Source: an uncultured bacterium
Lineage (GTDB): Bacteria > Patescibacteriota > Minisyncoccia > Moranbacterales > UBA2206
Direction of reading: 5' to 3'
Length of the DNA: 51,160 nt
NCBI GenBank assembly: GCA_903937035.1
Contig: CAIZXS010000003.1
Span: 1-51,160 of the forward strand
In this document: piece after piece, positions 42,384-50,882 of the stretch
Numbering within the stretch: the first letter of the stretch is position 1
Layout of the letters: every line of letters starts with the position of its first letter
Position numbers and translations under genes: made by a program
The notes under the pieces: model-generated
Told to the model about the DNA's origin: nothing
The model's database searches: none
What the model saw: only the letters and a program-made list of their open reading frames with translations

Positions 42384-43580
42384 CTATGGCTTGACAGCTT
42401 TACTCGCATTTACACTACTCTCAAAATCATTTTTTTCACCATCAAAAACATTTCTCAAATTACCCCTCACTTCGTCATATCTTTTGAAATATTTTTCTTC
42501 GGCCACCGCCTTGCAGCTTGGGGAGACTTTCTCTTCCACATTAAGCATAAAACTCGCCTCTTCAATGTTTAGCATCATCAGGCATTGATTATATTTCAAA
42601 ACTGCTGCTGATACATCGTAAAGCTGCTCTACGCCACTTTTCACCGCAAAGTCCATCTTATTCAGCATATTTTCTTGTTGTTGAAAAATGGCTTCAAAAT
42701 CTTTTTCATTTTTAACCGAGGAATATTGCCCATCTCCCGCTTCAGCGATTTTTCTCAATTGATCTTCCGTAGCGCCTCCCACATCAAAACCAATCACATT
42801 AACTTTAATATTTAAACCGGCGCTTTTTATTCCTTTAGTAACAGCAATTGGATCACCATTGCAAGTTTCTTCGCCATCACTCACCAATATAATGATATTT
42901 TTATCTTCTTTTGATGCTTTTTTTAGTAAAATGTCCTTGGCCGCTTCCAGAGATTTAGCGATTGGTGTCCAGCCCGTTGCGCTCAAGCTATTGAATTTTG
43001 ATTTAACAATATCCGGACTAATTATTCCAAACCAATAAACTTCTTCAATTCCCGCGCAAGAAACTGCCTTATCACCAGGACTATTGCTTCCTTTGTGTCC
43101 ATAAACCAAAACGCTAAGATTTGATTCGGTATTCTTTATGTTTTCAATAAATTTATTGGTCGCATTTTTGGCAATATCAATTTTGGATTTTCCGTCTATT
43201 TTAGCCGCCATACTTCCCGACGAATCAAAAATCATCACGATATTGGTTTTGGTTTTTTTCACTTCCGCATCTTTGAATTGTCCGCTTCTAAAATTTCCTT
43301 GCGCGCAGAGACTTTCGTCCAATTTATTAGCAGAAAGAAGTTTTTCATATTCGGAATCGCAAGAAGAAATCATTTTCTCAAGCGAGCCAGGGAGAAGACT
43401 TTTTTGACTATCTTTGCCAACTCCGCCCCTCATAAGTGCTACATAAAAAAATATGGAAGTGGCGGCCAAAATCAAGATGATAGCGGAAATCAGCACGACG
43501 CGTTTCTTCTTACTCTCTCTGGTAAAAGAAGCATCTGAACTGAGATTATCTTCAGGTACTTTTTGAAAGTTATTTTCCAT
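42384..43580 (-). CDS. Membrane-anchored VWA-domain protein
   Basis: 398 residues. A single TM (about 28-49) follows a cytoplasmic N-terminus. The extracytoplasmic part has a von Willebrand A domain with a full MIDAS: DSSGS in VMIFDSSGSMAAKI, TP in SATGWTPIAKSLEAA and a later Asp in ILVSDGEETCNGDP. It likely binds a metal-dependent protein or surface ligand. The C-terminal 120 residues are helical. It follows the GQ-repeat gene by 4 bp and ends with the terminator at 42334; part of the envelope cluster with the alpha-2-macroglobulin. Confidence 0.8.
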   Translation of the reverse strand: MENNFQKVPEDNLSSDASFTRESKKKRVVLISAIILILAATSIFFYVALMRGGVGKDSQKSLLPGSLEKMISSCDSEYEKLLSANKLDESLCAQGNFRSGQFKDAEVKKTKTNIVMIFDSSGSMAAKIDGKSKIDIAKNATNKFIENIKNTESNLSVLVYGHKGSNSPGDKAVSCAGIEEVYWFGIISPDIVKSKFNSLSATGWTPIAKSLEAAKDILLKKASKEDKNIIILVSDGEETCNGDPIAVTKGIKSAGLNIKVNVIGFDVGGATEDQLRKIAEAGDGQYSSVKNEKDFEAIFQQQENMLNKMDFAVKSGVEQLYDVSAAVLKYNQCLMMLNIEEASFMLNVEEKVSPSCKAVAEEKYFKRYDEVRGNLRNVFDGEKNDFESSVNASKAVKP

Positions 43581-43584
43581 TTTT

Positions 43585-44232
43585 TTATTTATCTTTATTT
43601 ATTAGATCGGTCGCGTCCCATTTAACGCCGTCTGCGCCCTGATAATCGACCACTTGTCCACCATTATCGCTGGTCCATTTTTCCGATCCATCGGTATAAT
43701 CCAATATCTGACCATTATTGGTGCTTTCCCATTTCCCCTGAGTACCTTCATATTTCAATATCTGTCCGAGATTATCGCTCTTCCAGATATTCCCTCTTCC
43801 ATCATCATATTTGAGGACTTGGCCACTGTTATCACTGTTCCATTTTTCTAATCTGCCAGCATAAGTCAATAGCTGTCCACTATTAGTACTTTCCCATTTA
43901 TGACCTTTCTCATCGGTGCAGGTTATCATCTGTCCATAATTATCGATGGTCCAGTTGCCCTGCTTGCCATCATATTCCAACGTCTGTCCGCCATTAATAC
44001 TCTTCCAGCAACCACCAGTATTGCAATATTCTCTAGACTCACCGATAAGTTTTACTGCGCTTTCGATTTTGCCTTGCATCTTATCTATCAATACTATGAA
44101 AGAATTATTTTCCGTTTTCGTCTTTCCTCCTTCCCAATTTTTTTCATCTTGAGCAAAAACAGAATACGAAAAACCACTAGCTAGAAAAACTACGCCAAAA
44201 AAAATGCTGACAATTATTTTTATTTTCTTCAT
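43585..44232 (-). CDS. Secreted GQ-repeat protein
   Basis: 215 residues. Signal peptide 1-27 (IIVSIFFGVVFLASGFSYSV), then from about residue 70 at least seven tandem units of 19-23 residues with W-x-S/I-x-N-x-GQ-x-L-x-Y (for example WKSINGGQTLEYDGKQG, WESTNSGQLLTYAG, WKSDNLGQILKYEGTQG, WESTNNGQILDYTDG). The spacing suggests a beta-solenoid or small propeller. Unrecognised family; it may bind a glycan or protein partner. Precedes the VWA gene by 4 bp, so the two surely work together. Confidence 0.65.
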   Translation of the reverse strand: MKKIKIIVSIFFGVVFLASGFSYSVFAQDEKNWEGGKTKTENNSFIVLIDKMQGKIESAVKLIGESREYCNTGGCWKSINGGQTLEYDGKQGNWTIDNYGQMITCTDEKGHKWESTNSGQLLTYAGRLEKWNSDNSGQVLKYDDGRGNIWKSDNLGQILKYEGTQGKWESTNNGQILDYTDGSEKWTSDNGGQVVDYQGADGVKWDATDLINKDK

Positions 44233-44784: not shown

Positions 44785-45690
44785 TCACTCCTCTGGAAAA
44801 AAACCCAACTCAAAATGACTCGTTCCCGGCGCACTTTCCTTTCCCTGCATTAAGCCAGAATTAGTGTGGCGAATCATTTCCAGCGCATTCTTTCCTCCAG
44901 TTCTTTCTTCCACAAAACTCAAAACGGCAATGAGCGCATCAGGAGAATCAAGATGATCATTTCCATATGACTCCAACAAGCGATAGTCTTTTTTTCCGAT
45001 AGCTTCCAATGTCTCTTGGTCTTTTTGATTTGATCTCTCAGTGGAAAGGTAATGTGAAAAATCAATTGAGCCAACCACGATCGTCCTTTCTCCGGCTAAC
45101 TGAGCAATTTTTTTGCCCAATGCCTTCGCATCATTCAGTGTCAGATTGGCACTCAAGGCCAAGGGCACAATCTTAGTTTTAGGCAAAAAATACTTGGAAA
45201 ACGTTGTGAGAGAATACACCGCATGTTCATTTTCAAGCGATTCTTCATCAAGCACCGCCACACCATTTTTCACTAGTGTGTCCACCAGTTCCACGTCTGT
45301 TTCCAAATTGCCAAATGGAGTGCCCCATGCATATTTTCCTGTGATAACTCGACCCTTTCCTGTTTCCGCATGATTTGGACCAATAATAATGATCGTTGCT
45401 GGTGGATTTTTTGAGTTTGAAAGGGCCGAAAAAAATTCCGCCAAGGATGCTGCTGCAAGCAAGTGATGAGGAACAACCCCGCCCACAACTTGCTTTTCGA
45501 CAAAGATTTTGGTCTTTTCATCTGAAGGAAAAACCTGCACCAGCTCCGGTTGAATCACGCGATCAGCGTGAACACCAAGCACTGACCGATCATTTTCTTT
45601 TTGAATGGCGTGTCGCCCTGAGAAAGAAAATGTCCAGAAAAAACCAATGGCAAATAAGGCCAAGAGCAGAGCTAATGATACCCTTTTCAT
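44785..45690 (-). CDS. MEMO-family protein (AmmeMemoRadiSam system B type)
   Basis: 301 residues. An N-terminal TM/signal (about 5-24) is followed by the MEMO domain. Candidate metal ligands lie in VVPHHLLAA, IIGPNHAETG and SIDFSHYLS; ENEHAVYSL is another conserved stretch. The C-terminal motif of Memo that supplies a Cys is here HTNSGLMQG. Memo proteins are metal-dependent redox or dioxygenase-like proteins; the bacterial role is unknown. The TM makes this one extracytoplasmic. Its ATG overlaps the alpha-2-macroglobulin stop by 4 bp, so the two are coupled. Confidence 0.8.
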   Translation of the reverse strand: MKRVSLALLLALFAIGFFWTFSFSGRHAIQKENDRSVLGVHADRVIQPELVQVFPSDEKTKIFVEKQVVGGVVPHHLLAAASLAEFFSALSNSKNPPATIIIIGPNHAETGKGRVITGKYAWGTPFGNLETDVELVDTLVKNGVAVLDEESLENEHAVYSLTTFSKYFLPKTKIVPLALSANLTLNDAKALGKKIAQLAGERTIVVGSIDFSHYLSTERSNQKDQETLEAIGKKDYRLLESYGNDHLDSPDALIAVLSFVEERTGGKNALEMIRHTNSGLMQGKESAPGTSHFELGFFPEE

Positions 45691-48600
45691 ACTTGGGTCT
45701 TTTTTTCAATTTCTGCTTTTTCCACGCCAGAAGAAGAGTCCACTTGGCTTTTCACACCCTGATTCCCGAGACTCTTTTGTTTGCGATTATAATACATCCA
45801 CCCGCTAATTCCGCCACCAATCAAAAGTGAGAGGAAGATTAGAAGAATGAAAAATACTACCTTGTCGCCGATAACTTTTTTAAAAGATGTCCCAACGATT
45901 GATTTATTACTTTTAACATCTATTTTCAATTGGCCCGTTTCTGAAATGCCATACACTTCGGGAGAATACATTAAAGCTGCCTGAGCTGGCGGAATAAAAA
46001 ATGATCCAGCCGACACCACTCTCGCCGAATACTCATAGACACTTTGATTGCTACCATAGGCCGCAAACGTAACATCGGCCTTCCCAATCTCCATTCCATA
46101 AGGAACATTCATGCCAAACATACCAGCAACGCCCTGGGTATTTTTGAACTCGCGATTAACCGGGACTAACCCCGCTGGAAGCTCATCCCTTACAACCAGA
46201 TAATCATTTATCTTGGATTGATTTTCAATCTTAATGCGCACAGTAACGGTGTCACCAATTCCAATATTACTCTTGCCTTTTTCTGGAATATATTCGCGCG
46301 TAATTTTTATCCCCTTATACTCCGCTGCGGCATTTTTCTTTGTCCTAAATTCATCCAGCACTGCCACTAAATAGGCCTCCCCACTACCAGACAACTTGAT
46401 GGAAAGTGCACCCTTTTTGACTGGCAAATCCTTCAGTGGTATTGAAATTTCCTTTCGATCACGAAAATCATTCACTAAGTCTTTTGCAATCATTTTTTCT
46501 CCCGCAAAAAGCTGATAAGAATAATTCGGATTCGCTCCACCGTTCTTTTGTGTGAATGCAGTGATCGCTTCAATCACCTGCGCAGTGGCAAAAGTATTGG
46601 ACCAATAATTCTTCTGACGATTATTCGCCAAAAAGCGAGCCGCTTTTTCTGCCGCACCACTATTGTCTCCCGCGGTAATTAATGCCTGAAGCGCAAAGGC
46701 AGTTGAGGCATCATTGCTTCCGAAGCGACTCCGCGGACCAGCCTCCCAATAAACTCCACCGGAAGAATCGACTTTTTGAAGTGCGAGAAGTTGACTGAGT
46801 CCATTTTGCGCCGGGTTTACAAAACCATTTTTGACGTTATGCGAGACCGCTATCGCTAATAATTCCGGACGAACGCCAGCTAAGTCAAAAATAGCTGATT
46901 GATCATTTCCAATATATCCCAATCCGGAAGTACGTAAAATCTGACGCTCTTTCACAAGCACAGCTTTTTCCTGCTCATTTTTTCCTACAAAAGCCTGCTC
47001 AGACCAGCGGAAATCGCCACCCTCCAAATAGCCACTTAATTTATTAGCCACCTCATTGGCTAAGTTCCTATCCTCCTGCTTCAAATCTGGCACGCTCCAG
47101 ATCCCTTCCAAATATCTCGCCACATACCAGGAAATAAATGGATCACTTCCATCTTTCCACCACCAAGAGAAGCCACCATTTTCCAATTGATGCTCCCTCA
47201 GACGCAAAAGCCCCTTATGTATAAGCTCGGGCATGTCCTTATTCTCCAAAGCTTTCTGATACAAGTCCTTATTCTTTTGTGCCACAACCACAGGCACTAA
47301 GCGACTCATTGTCTGTTCGATGCAACCATAGGGATAGCTAACCAAATATTCCATCGCGTCTGGAATCGTGCCAAGGAGATTAGGCGCCAGAGAAACTTTC
47401 AAGGTTGATTTTTCCGGATCAGCGTCATCTGAAAATTCATAATTTGCGGCGACCTTATCGCTTCCCACAAAGGAACGCGATACGCGATACCCAGCCGAAT
47501 AGACTGGCGCGGCTAAAGTAACCTTGTCCGAATTGCGCTCGTCCCTACCTGTGGCTGAAAAAATTAACTCAGCCGCTTCTAACTCCTTTTCCGGTGCAAC
47601 TGTGAAATAGATTTCTTTTGATTCTCCGCTATTCAATTCAATTTTCTGATTCGTTCCTTTCACTACCTTGCCACCAGAAAATTGCAGATTAGCCAAATAG
47701 GAACCCTTCTCGCCTGAGAAGTTCTGCAATAACGCCGAGAGAATCACTTCATCCCCTATCCGGAAAATATTTGGTAAAATTGGGCGCAAAATTACACTTT
47801 TTGTAACCTTAACCTCTTTGGTTGCCTGACCAACTTTACTATCCTTTGTTTCGGCATAACTCGCTAGAACCCAAGTAGTTAAATTATCCGGCAGACGAAA
47901 AGTTACCCGAGCCTTTCCATCAGTGCCAGTGCGAATAGCTGGATTCCAATATGCCGTATCGCGAAAAACCGAACGTCCTCCACCACCCTTATCGTTATGC
48001 ACCCAAACACCACCGGCGAAAAAAGTATGCTGATCTTTAATGGTCAGATTATAGACATTCGTTTTTTGCCTCAACCACTCAATCGAATCCACTCGCTCCT
48101 GCGTGCCATCAGATTTGACCAATTGATCACCAACTTGAATGTTTCCAGCTTCCTGCCATTTATCATTCACAAACATCCGATGAGTTGGAGTCACTCGCAA
48201 ATCACCATTGATAATCAAAATGCCATTTACACTCAAGGCGTGCGTGCTAACGACTGAGGCTGGCACCAATTCTGCATCAGTTTCACTTTTTCTTGTTAGC
48301 ACCAGATCCCCTTCTTGGATATCTTCAATCGATTTTTGCTCACCATCGGGAAGCAATACTGGCGTTCCAGCTGCAAAACAGCCACCACGCTCCGCGCCAT
48401 ATGCAACAATGCCCTTTAATGAATGAGATTCTTGGGTATCATTGTAACGTTCCCGATAAAAATCCTCGAAAATATTACCAGTCTGACTGTCCGATAATTC
48501 ATAGATTGCCTTATCAACCCCAAAAAGCGCCACATCCGCTTCAAGCGGAGCACCTTTCTGATCTCTCGCTTCAACCTCAATTGAAATATCATCTCCAGGT

Positions 48601-50882
48601 CCATAAGTCTCGCGATCAGGCTTAATTTTCAAATCAATTCGCTTTTTTTCCGCTGATACCAGAATTTTTTCTTCACTATGATAATATTTCCCATTGGCAA
48701 AAGTTGTTGCAGAAATGAATCGATTTGGCATGTCCACATCTGACAGATCAAACTCGATTGTTTTAGAACGACCACTCAAGTTAATAATTTGATAGCGATC
48801 CATCCGACCTCTTTCAACGGACACAAATACATCGCGATTGGGCACATTAGAAGAAATTGTTACTCGCGCTTTCTCGCCAGGTTCATAGCTTTTCTTATCG
48901 GCTTTAATAATAATTCCCTGGTCAGTTCCTTCATTGTCATCCGAGAAGGAATAGAAAAAGCCGTTCTCCTCTGGAACCCAAAGCCACACCTCACGATACA
49001 CCGAGTTGCCTCGCGCATCCACCGCTTTCACATTGTATTGATATGATCCTGGCTTGTCAGGCACAAAAGCCAATAGCACATTCCCATCCTTATCAGAAGT
49101 AGCCTTTATTTCTGGCAACGAACTACTATTTCTCTTGTAGCTAAGAGGCGTGTCTTCTGTTTCACGAACCTCATCCCAATACTCTCGCTCTCCGGTGGCG
49201 CTAACTGCAATATTTTTTACAGATGTATTTTGGGCATATGGAATAATCGTCAGAGGAATCTGGGCTTTTTCTCCAATTTTTGCCGCATAGCTCCAATCAT
49301 TGCTCTTGCGGTAAATGCCAAAATCACCAGCATACATGAGCACGTTCTTGCGATCAAAAACCGGTTCACCCCCACCTTTTTCAAAGTTAACCTCGAAAGA
49401 AACAACTTGATTTCCAACTGCCCCATCAGGAACTTGCGCCACAACAACAATCTCTGCCTCGCCATTTTGATCAAGCACCACTTCTGCATCTGAAACTAAC
49501 CGCCCAGCATACCCTCCATAATATTGATATTTGCTGTTGAGCGCATTTTCCTTGCTATCCAGATAATCATACTCGTAAAAATTATTTGACTTTACCATAT
49601 AAGTCACCTTTTCTCCACTCAAAGCTTCTCCAGAAAAATATTCTCCCTTGATGGTAAAATGCATCTCGTCTCCAACAATATAGACATCCTTTTCCGGCTT
49701 AATGTCCAAACTATATTCTGGTTTGCGAAATTCTTGTACACTAAAATTTGCCTGAGTATATCCGTCATTTTCATCGGAACTACCCTCGCGCTTAATGGCT
49801 AAATAATATTCACCCACTTCCACATCCGGTGGAAGACTGAAAGTATCATCAATCGTCCCATACTCCGAAAGTGTTAACGTCTTTTCATAGACCATTTTTT
49901 TGTCCTCTCCCCAGCCAGAAAAAACACTAACTCGCGCCTTGCCTGAAACAATCGAGTAGGCGACATCGTCATCATTACGCAAAATTGATTTGAAATGCAC
50001 AATGTCTCCTGGACGATAAAGTGGACGATCAGTGAAGGTGAAATATTTTGGATCGACCACTTTTTCTTTAAATACTGACCAACGATAATCAAGAGAAGTT
50101 AAATTGAGAGGTATAAGAGCCAAATCTGAACCATTCCTCAGAATGGCCACATCGGCCTTTTCATCAATTTTCGTCTCAGCGATTCCCATTGAGTTAGTTT
50201 TCAATTCGTCTAGCTTGTCCACTTTTTCTCGTAGATTAAAAGTAGTCAATGAAACGTCCGAGAGACTTTTTCCGCTAGAACGATTCTGAGCCCAAAAAAC
50301 TAATTTTCCATCTCCCTCTTTCACTAAGGCGGAAAAATCTGAAACCAAAAGAAGCGCCTCAGTCTGCACATCACCTTGTTTTATTTGCACGATCCAAGCC
50401 CCAGTTTCCGCAATCGGCAAAATAACTTTACGACGTTCTTTGCTGACAATATTTTCCGAAAAATTTGCAACGGACGCATAGCCATCGAGATTAGAAAAAT
50501 CATTTTTTTTCTCAAAACCACTATCCTTATCCTTATATATCAAAAAGTTTTTAAGCGCGTCTTCATCGCCGCGATAGACAGAGACATTGACTTCCCCACT
50601 CACATTATCGCTTTGAAGCCAAATCGAAGGCTCCGCACCTTTGGCCAGCGAAAAAAGACCGTTTGATCCTTGATTTTGATCATCACGAAAAATATAGAGT
50701 CTTTTGATTATTTTCTCCTTTCCCAATACCTCCCCAGAATCAGCCGAGACGATTGGTTGGCTATTTTTTTGCATAATCACCCAACCAGTCATAGACAAAA
50801 AAAATGCCACCAAGGCAAAATAAATAAACTTTTTTTTGTTAGCTTGCTTTTTTTGTTCACCCTCAACTAATTCTTTTTTCAT
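45687..50882 (-). CDS. Alpha-2-macroglobulin with embedded Hint (intein-like) domain
   Basis: 1731 residues. An N-terminal TM/signal anchor (about 17-37) is followed by macroglobulin domains with YRPGDIVHFKSI and PGEKARVTISS. A Hint domain occupies 835-963, then FRDTAYWNPAIRTGTDGKAR and LPDNLTTWVLASY. A thioester motif GCIEQ has Cys1187 and Gln1190, followed by the helical thioester domain and a C-terminal TM (about 1674-1697). Bacterial A2M traps proteases through the thioester. Most homologues have no Hint domain. They are often paired with PBP1C; here the partner is a MEMO protein. No Shine-Dalgarno. Confidence 0.92.
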   Translation of the reverse strand: MKKELVEGEQKKQANKKKFIYFALVAFFLSMTGWVIMQKNSQPIVSADSGEVLGKEKIIKRLYIFRDDQNQGSNGLFSLAKGAEPSIWLQSDNVSGEVNVSVYRGDEDALKNFLIYKDKDSGFEKKNDFSNLDGYASVANFSENIVSKERRKVILPIAETGAWIVQIKQGDVQTEALLLVSDFSALVKEGDGKLVFWAQNRSSGKSLSDVSLTTFNLREKVDKLDELKTNSMGIAETKIDEKADVAILRNGSDLALIPLNLTSLDYRWSVFKEKVVDPKYFTFTDRPLYRPGDIVHFKSILRNDDDVAYSIVSGKARVSVFSGWGEDKKMVYEKTLTLSEYGTIDDTFSLPPDVEVGEYYLAIKREGSSDENDGYTQANFSVQEFRKPEYSLDIKPEKDVYIVGDEMHFTIKGEYFSGEALSGEKVTYMVKSNNFYEYDYLDSKENALNSKYQYYGGYAGRLVSDAEVVLDQNGEAEIVVVAQVPDGAVGNQVVSFEVNFEKGGGEPVFDRKNVLMYAGDFGIYRKSNDWSYAAKIGEKAQIPLTIIPYAQNTSVKNIAVSATGEREYWDEVRETEDTPLSYKRNSSSLPEIKATSDKDGNVLLAFVPDKPGSYQYNVKAVDARGNSVYREVWLWVPEENGFFYSFSDDNEGTDQGIIIKADKKSYEPGEKARVTISSNVPNRDVFVSVERGRMDRYQIINLSGRSKTIEFDLSDVDMPNRFISATTFANGKYYHSEEKILVSAEKKRIDLKIKPDRETYGPGDDISIEVEARDQKGAPLEADVALFGVDKAIYELSDSQTGNIFEDFYRERYNDTQESHSLKGIVAYGAERGGCFAAGTPVLLPDGEQKSIEDIQEGDLVLTRKSETDAELVPASVVSTHALSVNGILIINGDLRVTPTHRMFVNDKWQEAGNIQVGDQLVKSDGTQERVDSIEWLRQKTNVYNLTIKDQHTFFAGGVWVHNDKGGGGRSVFRDTAYWNPAIRTGTDGKARVTFRLPDNLTTWVLASYAETKDSKVGQATKEVKVTKSVILRPILPNIFRIGDEVILSALLQNFSGEKGSYLANLQFSGGKVVKGTNQKIELNSGESKEIYFTVAPEKELEAAELIFSATGRDERNSDKVTLAAPVYSAGYRVSRSFVGSDKVAANYEFSDDADPEKSTLKVSLAPNLLGTIPDAMEYLVSYPYGCIEQTMSRLVPVVVAQKNKDLYQKALENKDMPELIHKGLLRLREHQLENGGFSWWWKDGSDPFISWYVARYLEGIWSVPDLKQEDRNLANEVANKLSGYLEGGDFRWSEQAFVGKNEQEKAVLVKERQILRTSGLGYIGNDQSAIFDLAGVRPELLAIAVSHNVKNGFVNPAQNGLSQLLALQKVDSSGGVYWEAGPRSRFGSNDASTAFALQALITAGDNSGAAEKAARFLANNRQKNYWSNTFATAQVIEAITAFTQKNGGANPNYSYQLFAGEKMIAKDLVNDFRDRKEISIPLKDLPVKKGALSIKLSGSGEAYLVAVLDEFRTKKNAAAEYKGIKITREYIPEKGKSNIGIGDTVTVRIKIENQSKINDYLVVRDELPAGLVPVNREFKNTQGVAGMFGMNVPYGMEIGKADVTFAAYGSNQSVYEYSARVVSAGSFFIPPAQAALMYSPEVYGISETGQLKIDVKSNKSIVGTSFKKVIGDKVVFFILLIFLSLLIGGGISGWMYYNRKQKSLGNQGVKSQVDSSSGVEKAEIEKKTQV
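47994..48380 (-). other. Hint/bacterial intein-like domain within the alpha-2-macroglobulin
   Basis: 129 residues. It starts at Cys835 (CFAAGTPVLLPDGEQ, block A) and has a TPTHRMFV block B near residue 900. It ends with HTFFAGGVWVHN (residues 952-963) followed by Asp964. The His-Asn end followed by a residue other than Cys/Ser/Thr fits bacterial intein-like (BIL) type A domains, which cleave or splice without a nucleophile at +1. No endonuclease is present. Gly-rich linkers (GAERGG and DKGGGG) flank it. It sits between the end of the first macroglobulin block and the A2M domain. Confidence 0.88.

Follow-up and report, generated by a model that had tools for sequence, protein, structure and literature searches.

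A Hint domain of bacterial intein-like type A in the bait region of a Patescibacteria alpha-2-macroglobulin: a candidate cutter of its own host protein

The window analysed here is the whole 51,160-nucleotide stretch of contig CAIZXS010000003.1 (assembly GCA_903937035.1), from an uncultured member of the Patescibacteria (Moranbacterales, UBA2206). Its minus strand carries a gene for an alpha-2-macroglobulin (A2M) whose bait is interrupted by a folded (predicted) Hint domain. An earlier reading of the sequence, the original prediction, had described one uninterrupted frame in which a Hint domain with Cys1, a TPTH block and a His-Asn end followed by Asp splits a thioester A2M just before its A2M domain. 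The frame, the coordinates of the Hint and each of these residues proved exact to the residue, and the order of the Pfam domains and the YGCIEQ motif agree with this arrangement. The features of the gene are as follows.

45687..50882, minus strand: A2M gene, 1731 aa, a single open frame with predicted membrane anchors at both ends
50772..50828, minus strand: N-terminal hydrophobic segment, predicted signal anchor, ~aa 19-37 (hydropathy)
48495..48908, minus strand: A2M_BRD (bait region domain), aa 659-796 (Pfam PF07703, E 1.4e-19)
48381..48401, minus strand: N-side junction loop YGAERGG, aa 828-834, with Gly as the -1 residue
47994..48380, minus strand: Hint domain of BIL (bacterial intein-like) type A shape, aa 835-963, 129 aa (sequence and predicted fold)
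48378..48380, minus strand: Cys1 (C835) of the Hint, invariant in 29/29 A2M-Hints
48180..48191, minus strand: block B TPTH, aa 898-901, Thr and His invariant in 29/29
47994..47999, minus strand: terminal His-Asn (H962-N963), invariant in 28/28 complete copies
47976..47993, minus strand: C-side junction loop DKGGGG, aa 964-969, with Asp (D964) at +1
47964..47975, minus strand: alpha'NT motif R-S-V-F (R970, F973), aligned to human R732/F735 and E. coli Arg956
47709..47957, minus strand: A2M domain PF00207, aa 976-1058 (Pfam)
47313..47330, minus strand: thioester motif YGCIEQ, aa 1185-1190, C1187 (sequence motif)
45804..45860, minus strand: C-terminal hydrophobic segment, ~aa 1675-1693 (hydropathy)

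Profile searches, structure prediction and a survey of related proteins, which the original prediction had proposed as checks, were all run. Above the Pfam gathering cut-offs, the window protein matched MG2, A2M_BRD, A2M, TED_complement, bMG10 and PT-HINT, with the PT-HINT match (PF07591, E 1.6e-13) falling between A2M_BRD and A2M; the domains that mark a bacterial type I A2M (MG2, bait domain, A2M, thioester domain (TED) with C.EQ, and bMG10) are all present, and the bait is interrupted by the folded (predicted) Hint. By sequence, the closest solved relative of the window Hint is the C. thermocellum BIL domain 2lwy (E 2.7e-10). The AlphaFold model recovered the Hint fold with a mean pLDDT of 86.6 (114/149 residues at 90 or above) and disordered flanks, and the top Foldseek matches of this model were again BIL domains, namely Tetrahymena BIL2 (E 3e-12, TM 0.8) and 2lwy. 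With a Hint fold, an N-terminal Cys, a C-terminal His-Asn and no Cys, Ser or Thr at +1, the insert is almost certainly a Hint domain of BIL type A, which bears out the shape originally proposed. A canonical class 1 intein is ruled out by the Asp at +1, a PT-HINT polymorphic toxin by the presence of A2M domains rather than a toxin domain C-terminal to the Hint, and a C3-like complement protein by the Hint that stands, instead of an anaphylatoxin (ANA) domain, between the bait position and alpha'NT. BIL type A domains in general undergo an N-S shift at Cys1 and Asn cyclisation, resulting mostly in cleavage and sometimes in splicing (PMC4031507, PMC7664689), in agreement with the earlier statement that they act without a +1 nucleophile.

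The insertion site was placed by aligning a profile built from seven Patescibacteria A2Ms that lack the Hint with E. coli YfhM and human A2M. Hint-less relatives have a Gly-rich loop at the Hint site (GAEMGGGG, SKGGGG), and the Hint-bearing form reads GG/C...HN/xKGG, where slashes mark the Hint boundaries. The absence is exact between the Hint-less L105 (AEMGGGG) and its near relative L109 (SEGGG/Hint/GKGGGG), and a search for Hint remnants in Hint-less Patescibacteria A2Ms found none. In YfhM the Gly-rich loop corresponds to ~947-952, and the conserved Arg that comes next corresponds to Arg956 (the chain-to-protein offset is 39, a value that the numbering of Arg956, Gly958 and Asn963 in PMC4498604 confirms), so that in terms of the E. 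coli A2M bait the Hint site lies between the disordered 923-942 and Arg956. The alignment to human A2M is ungapped at a constant offset and puts the conserved R..F that follows the Hint on R732/F735; across the Hint-A2Ms, 3-9 residues separate the N963 equivalent from the conserved R. In human A2M the bait spans P690-T728, and native protein still forms when GGS triplets take its place, while C3, C4 and C5 of complement have the folded ANA domain at this place (PMC9352918). The alpha'NT segment (the R732/F735 region) threads a channel; its release by bait cutting leads to the A2M conformational change, the trigger running C-terminally and the change being independent of the thioester (PMC9352918). 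By these alignments, the Hint lies within the bait region with the alpha'NT segment immediately after it, and its C-terminal junction, being 3-9 residues ahead of the alpha'NT R..F, is positioned as a trigger cut would be. The original prediction had set the domain only close to the region where A2M is normally cleaved; the site found here is the bait itself, adjoining alpha'NT.

The insertion is not peculiar to the window. Among 380 sampled Patescibacteria genomes, searched with a profile from three Hint-A2Ms and then with PF00207, 48 contain A2M, with ~50 solid genes, and 21 of these genes have a Hint at the bait position, roughly 40% of the sampled Patescibacteria A2Ms; one gene counted (G130) is divided between two contigs. 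A pattern scan of further genome contigs, made with narrow patterns, gave nine Patescibacteria matches, among them additional copies of the Hint-A2M, and one unrelated Bacteroidia Hint. More than 25 other genomes have the same insertion with intact catalytic residues, a recurrence that excludes chance or assembly error. PT-HINT exceeds its Pfam cut-off in 23/380 Patescibacteria genomes, and in 20 of these it lies within A2M. The bait Hint was not found in 247 Bacteroidota genomes (~80 A2M matches, judged by match extent); three odd-looking matches inspected directly were without Hint, and one Hint was found in this control in a non-A2M open reading frame. In the last 70 bases of L106 (G016:C15), another A2M from the family of the window protein runs into a Hint at this position (NGAERGG/CFLGGT) and is cut off by the contig end. 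Other Patescibacteria Hints were observed in a 4363-aa frame, in this case starting with Ser (L099, G430), and as several Hint-like domains within one 2287-aa frame (L138, G431).

The conservation set comprises 29 aligned A2M-Hints, 28 of them complete, with a mean identity of ~41%, and contains no dead copy. The -1 residue is Gly in 26/29, and the +1 residue is D, E, G, A, K or N and never C, S or T, with one Gly count coming from a copy that ends at a contig edge. Exactly one cysteine, at position 1, is found in each of the 29 Hints; the window protein as a whole has only two, Hint C835 and thioester C1187, and its near relatives (L045, L047, L050 and L109) are likewise limited to Hint C1 and the thioester Cys. 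As these are the sole cysteines, a disulfide between the two halves of a cut protein is not expected. Nonsynonymous and synonymous divergence (dN/dS) for the pair L045/L047 is 0.083/0.40 in the Hint and 0.10/0.43 in the flanks; in pairwise comparisons generally, most of which have dS saturated or close to it, the Hint is constrained about as much as the flanks. Where dS is readable, the Hint is under purifying selection.

The constant site, the invariant chemistry, the recurrence, and the BIL domains as best matches by both sequence and fold together support our leading explanation, held tentatively and at slightly less than even confidence: that a BIL type A Hint is retained by selection in the A2M bait and cuts its own host protein. 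The original prediction had proposed cutting or splicing after export as an autoproteolytic switch, and is supported in part. Self-cutting, its timing or trigger, and activation of the A2M by the Hint are steps that we infer as follows. Cys835 would attack the Gly834 carbonyl to give a thioester, the hydrolysis of which would make the N-side cut, and cyclisation of Asn963 would free Asp964 in the C-side cut. The N-side cut alone would only prime the protein, like furin processing in complement, because the channel should not admit a folded Hint that is still attached to alpha'NT. Firing would come with the C-side cut, which would release alpha'NT (R970..F973) bearing a six-residue tail; other A2M-family proteins are sprung by such a release. 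Since this self-cut would itself free alpha'NT, a foreign protease would not be needed for bait cutting. Both halves would remain on the membrane, given the hydrophobic segments at both ends of the window protein and its near relatives. To our knowledge, every characterised A2M or complement protein awaits a foreign or partner protease for the cut at the bait or anaphylatoxin junction. It is possible, if doubtful, that this A2M fires itself and would thereby be the first in the A2M/complement superfamily to receive its triggering cut in cis, from an inserted domain of its own.

Several points weigh against a self-cutting bait. Without control, the cut would set off the A2M immediately, and a regulator was not identified; this is the weak point of the explanation. 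More than half of the Patescibacteria A2Ms are Hint-less, with patchy gain or loss, from which it follows that the Hint is dispensable. The original prediction had also placed the Hint in a thioester context, and YGCIEQ is indeed present in the window protein; the link is weaker than was implied, as Hint presence does not follow the thioester. Among 28 scored Hint-A2Ms, 12 have the thioester and 16 lack it, and a coupling of Hint and thioester was rejected for this lack of association. The conformational change itself needs no thioester (PMC9352918). Finally, splicing draws on the same residues and would give back a Gly-rich bait that is uncut.

Clean splicing, in which the Hint would excise itself and join AERGG to DKGGGG as an intein-like element tolerated in a permissive loop, is a real but lesser possibility. 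Its product would be a bait hard to cut for many proteases. In its favour, conservation extends to both junction residues, more than cleavage alone would demand; splicing by type A BILs is possible without a +1 nucleophile (PMC4031507); the Gly at -1 and the Gly-rich flanks would suit ligation; the Hint is exactly absent from L105 as compared with L109; and A2M with a Gly/Ser bait still yields native protein (PMC9352918). Characterised BILs mostly cleave, however (PMC4031507, PMC7664689), a +1 nucleophile is present in 0/28 complete copies, and a free-roaming element is difficult to reconcile with the confinement of PT-HINT to A2M in 20/23 genomes and with the lack of an endonuclease. Cleavage is the outcome that we favour.

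A neutral or selfish insertion, without a role in A2M and persisting in a tolerant loop, is improbable, although part of the history of the domain points that way. On an A2M tree computed with the Hint left out, Hint presence changes at least five times by supported branches and eight times on the best tree, a patchy distribution that needs repeated gains or losses. The Hint and A2M trees are congruent at shallow depth; toward deep A2M clades, Hint identity goes from 0.44 to 0.40 as compared with 0.34 to 0.21 for the flanks, a near-flat course that suggests sideways exchange between A2M lineages, or saturation. Against a neutral element stand the catalytic residues kept in 29/29 copies, the host-like dN/dS of the readable pairs, and a second Hint lineage at the identical site. 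This lineage, found in family f52, is distinct and clusters with 2lwy and a Hint from Bacteroidota. A single clade, and hence a single origin, of all A2M-Hints was not rejected with five reference Hints (p 0.17) and was rejected with eight (p 0.029), and on these sequence comparisons it is likely, though not firm, that Hints reached this site twice independently. Recently acquired foreign DNA was rejected, the GC and GC3 of the Hint resembling the remainder of the gene, as was a viral origin, a scan of viral contigs having given no relative. At the junctions of L092, L093 and L095, the flanks look duplicated in the manner of a target duplication: GAE(K/G)GG precedes the Hint and AEKGG follows it.

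Hedgehog transfers its thioester to cholesterol, and the N-terminal thioester of the Hint might similarly be handed to an outside amine, conjugating the N-half of the A2M to a surface. The best fold match, BIL2 of the Tetrahymena BUBL1 locus, and the Gly at -1 are compatible with this, but it would not require the conserved terminal His-Asn, and an acceptor-binding domain is absent C-terminal to the Hint; we consider conjugation very unlikely. Least probable of all is an inert folded plug that fills the anaphylatoxin place without chemistry, as a folded (predicted) domain at that position would allow and the absolute conservation of the chemistry residues contradicts.

Patescibacteria A2Ms have been proposed to protect epibionts against host proteases, and the available portions of these accounts do not mention a Hint domain (PMC8080830, PMC9793634). 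A literature search for work connecting Hint, BIL or intein with A2M or macroglobulin did not find a relevant paper. If the Hint is active as a bait cutter, A2M conformational change would be separated from outside proteolysis in roughly 40% of the sampled Patescibacteria A2Ms, and, where a thioester is present, an epibiont could bind a host or protease covalently without an outside protease. Such proteins would offer a natural system for the plug-in-channel model of the trigger, and may explain the use of large surface proteins by epibiotic bacteria with tiny genomes.

The end and stop codon of the A2M gene are overlapped by a Memo-like gene (PF01875; 44785-45690, minus strand), homologues of which lie near A2M in ~20 of the Patescibacteria loci examined, whether the Hint is present or not. 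Also on the minus strand, 43585-44232 encodes a secreted-looking protein of 215 aa with repeated W-S-N-GQ-L-Y units and no Pfam match, and is adjoined by a gene for a VWA protein (42384-43580).

Of the known systems, BIL type A domains (2lwy; Tetrahymena BUBL1 BIL2, 6tmm/6y75) resemble the window Hint in fold (TM ~0.8), Cys1, TxxH, His-Asn and the lack of a +1 nucleophile; the window Hint differs in its thioester A2M host, its constant functional site and its mostly single, dedicated Patescibacteria lineage. The polymorphic-toxin PT-HINT domains share the Pfam family PF07591, but precede a C-terminal toxin, whereas the window Hint is internal to A2M with no toxin domain after it. The A2Ms of E. 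coli and Salmonella (YfhM, ECAM, SaA2M) share with the window protein the macroglobulin (MG) domains, BRD, TED thioester, bMG10, membrane anchoring and the Arg956 equivalent; they are Hint-less, with an unfolded bait that foreign proteases cut, while the window protein has hydrophobic segments at both ends. The ANA domain of complement C3, C4 and C5 is likewise folded and lies after the bait position and before alpha'NT, and a cut on its C side activates (PMC9352918). ANA is cut by convertases and furin, in contrast to the Hint, which has cutting residues of its own, and as the two folds are unrelated the likeness is at most functional.
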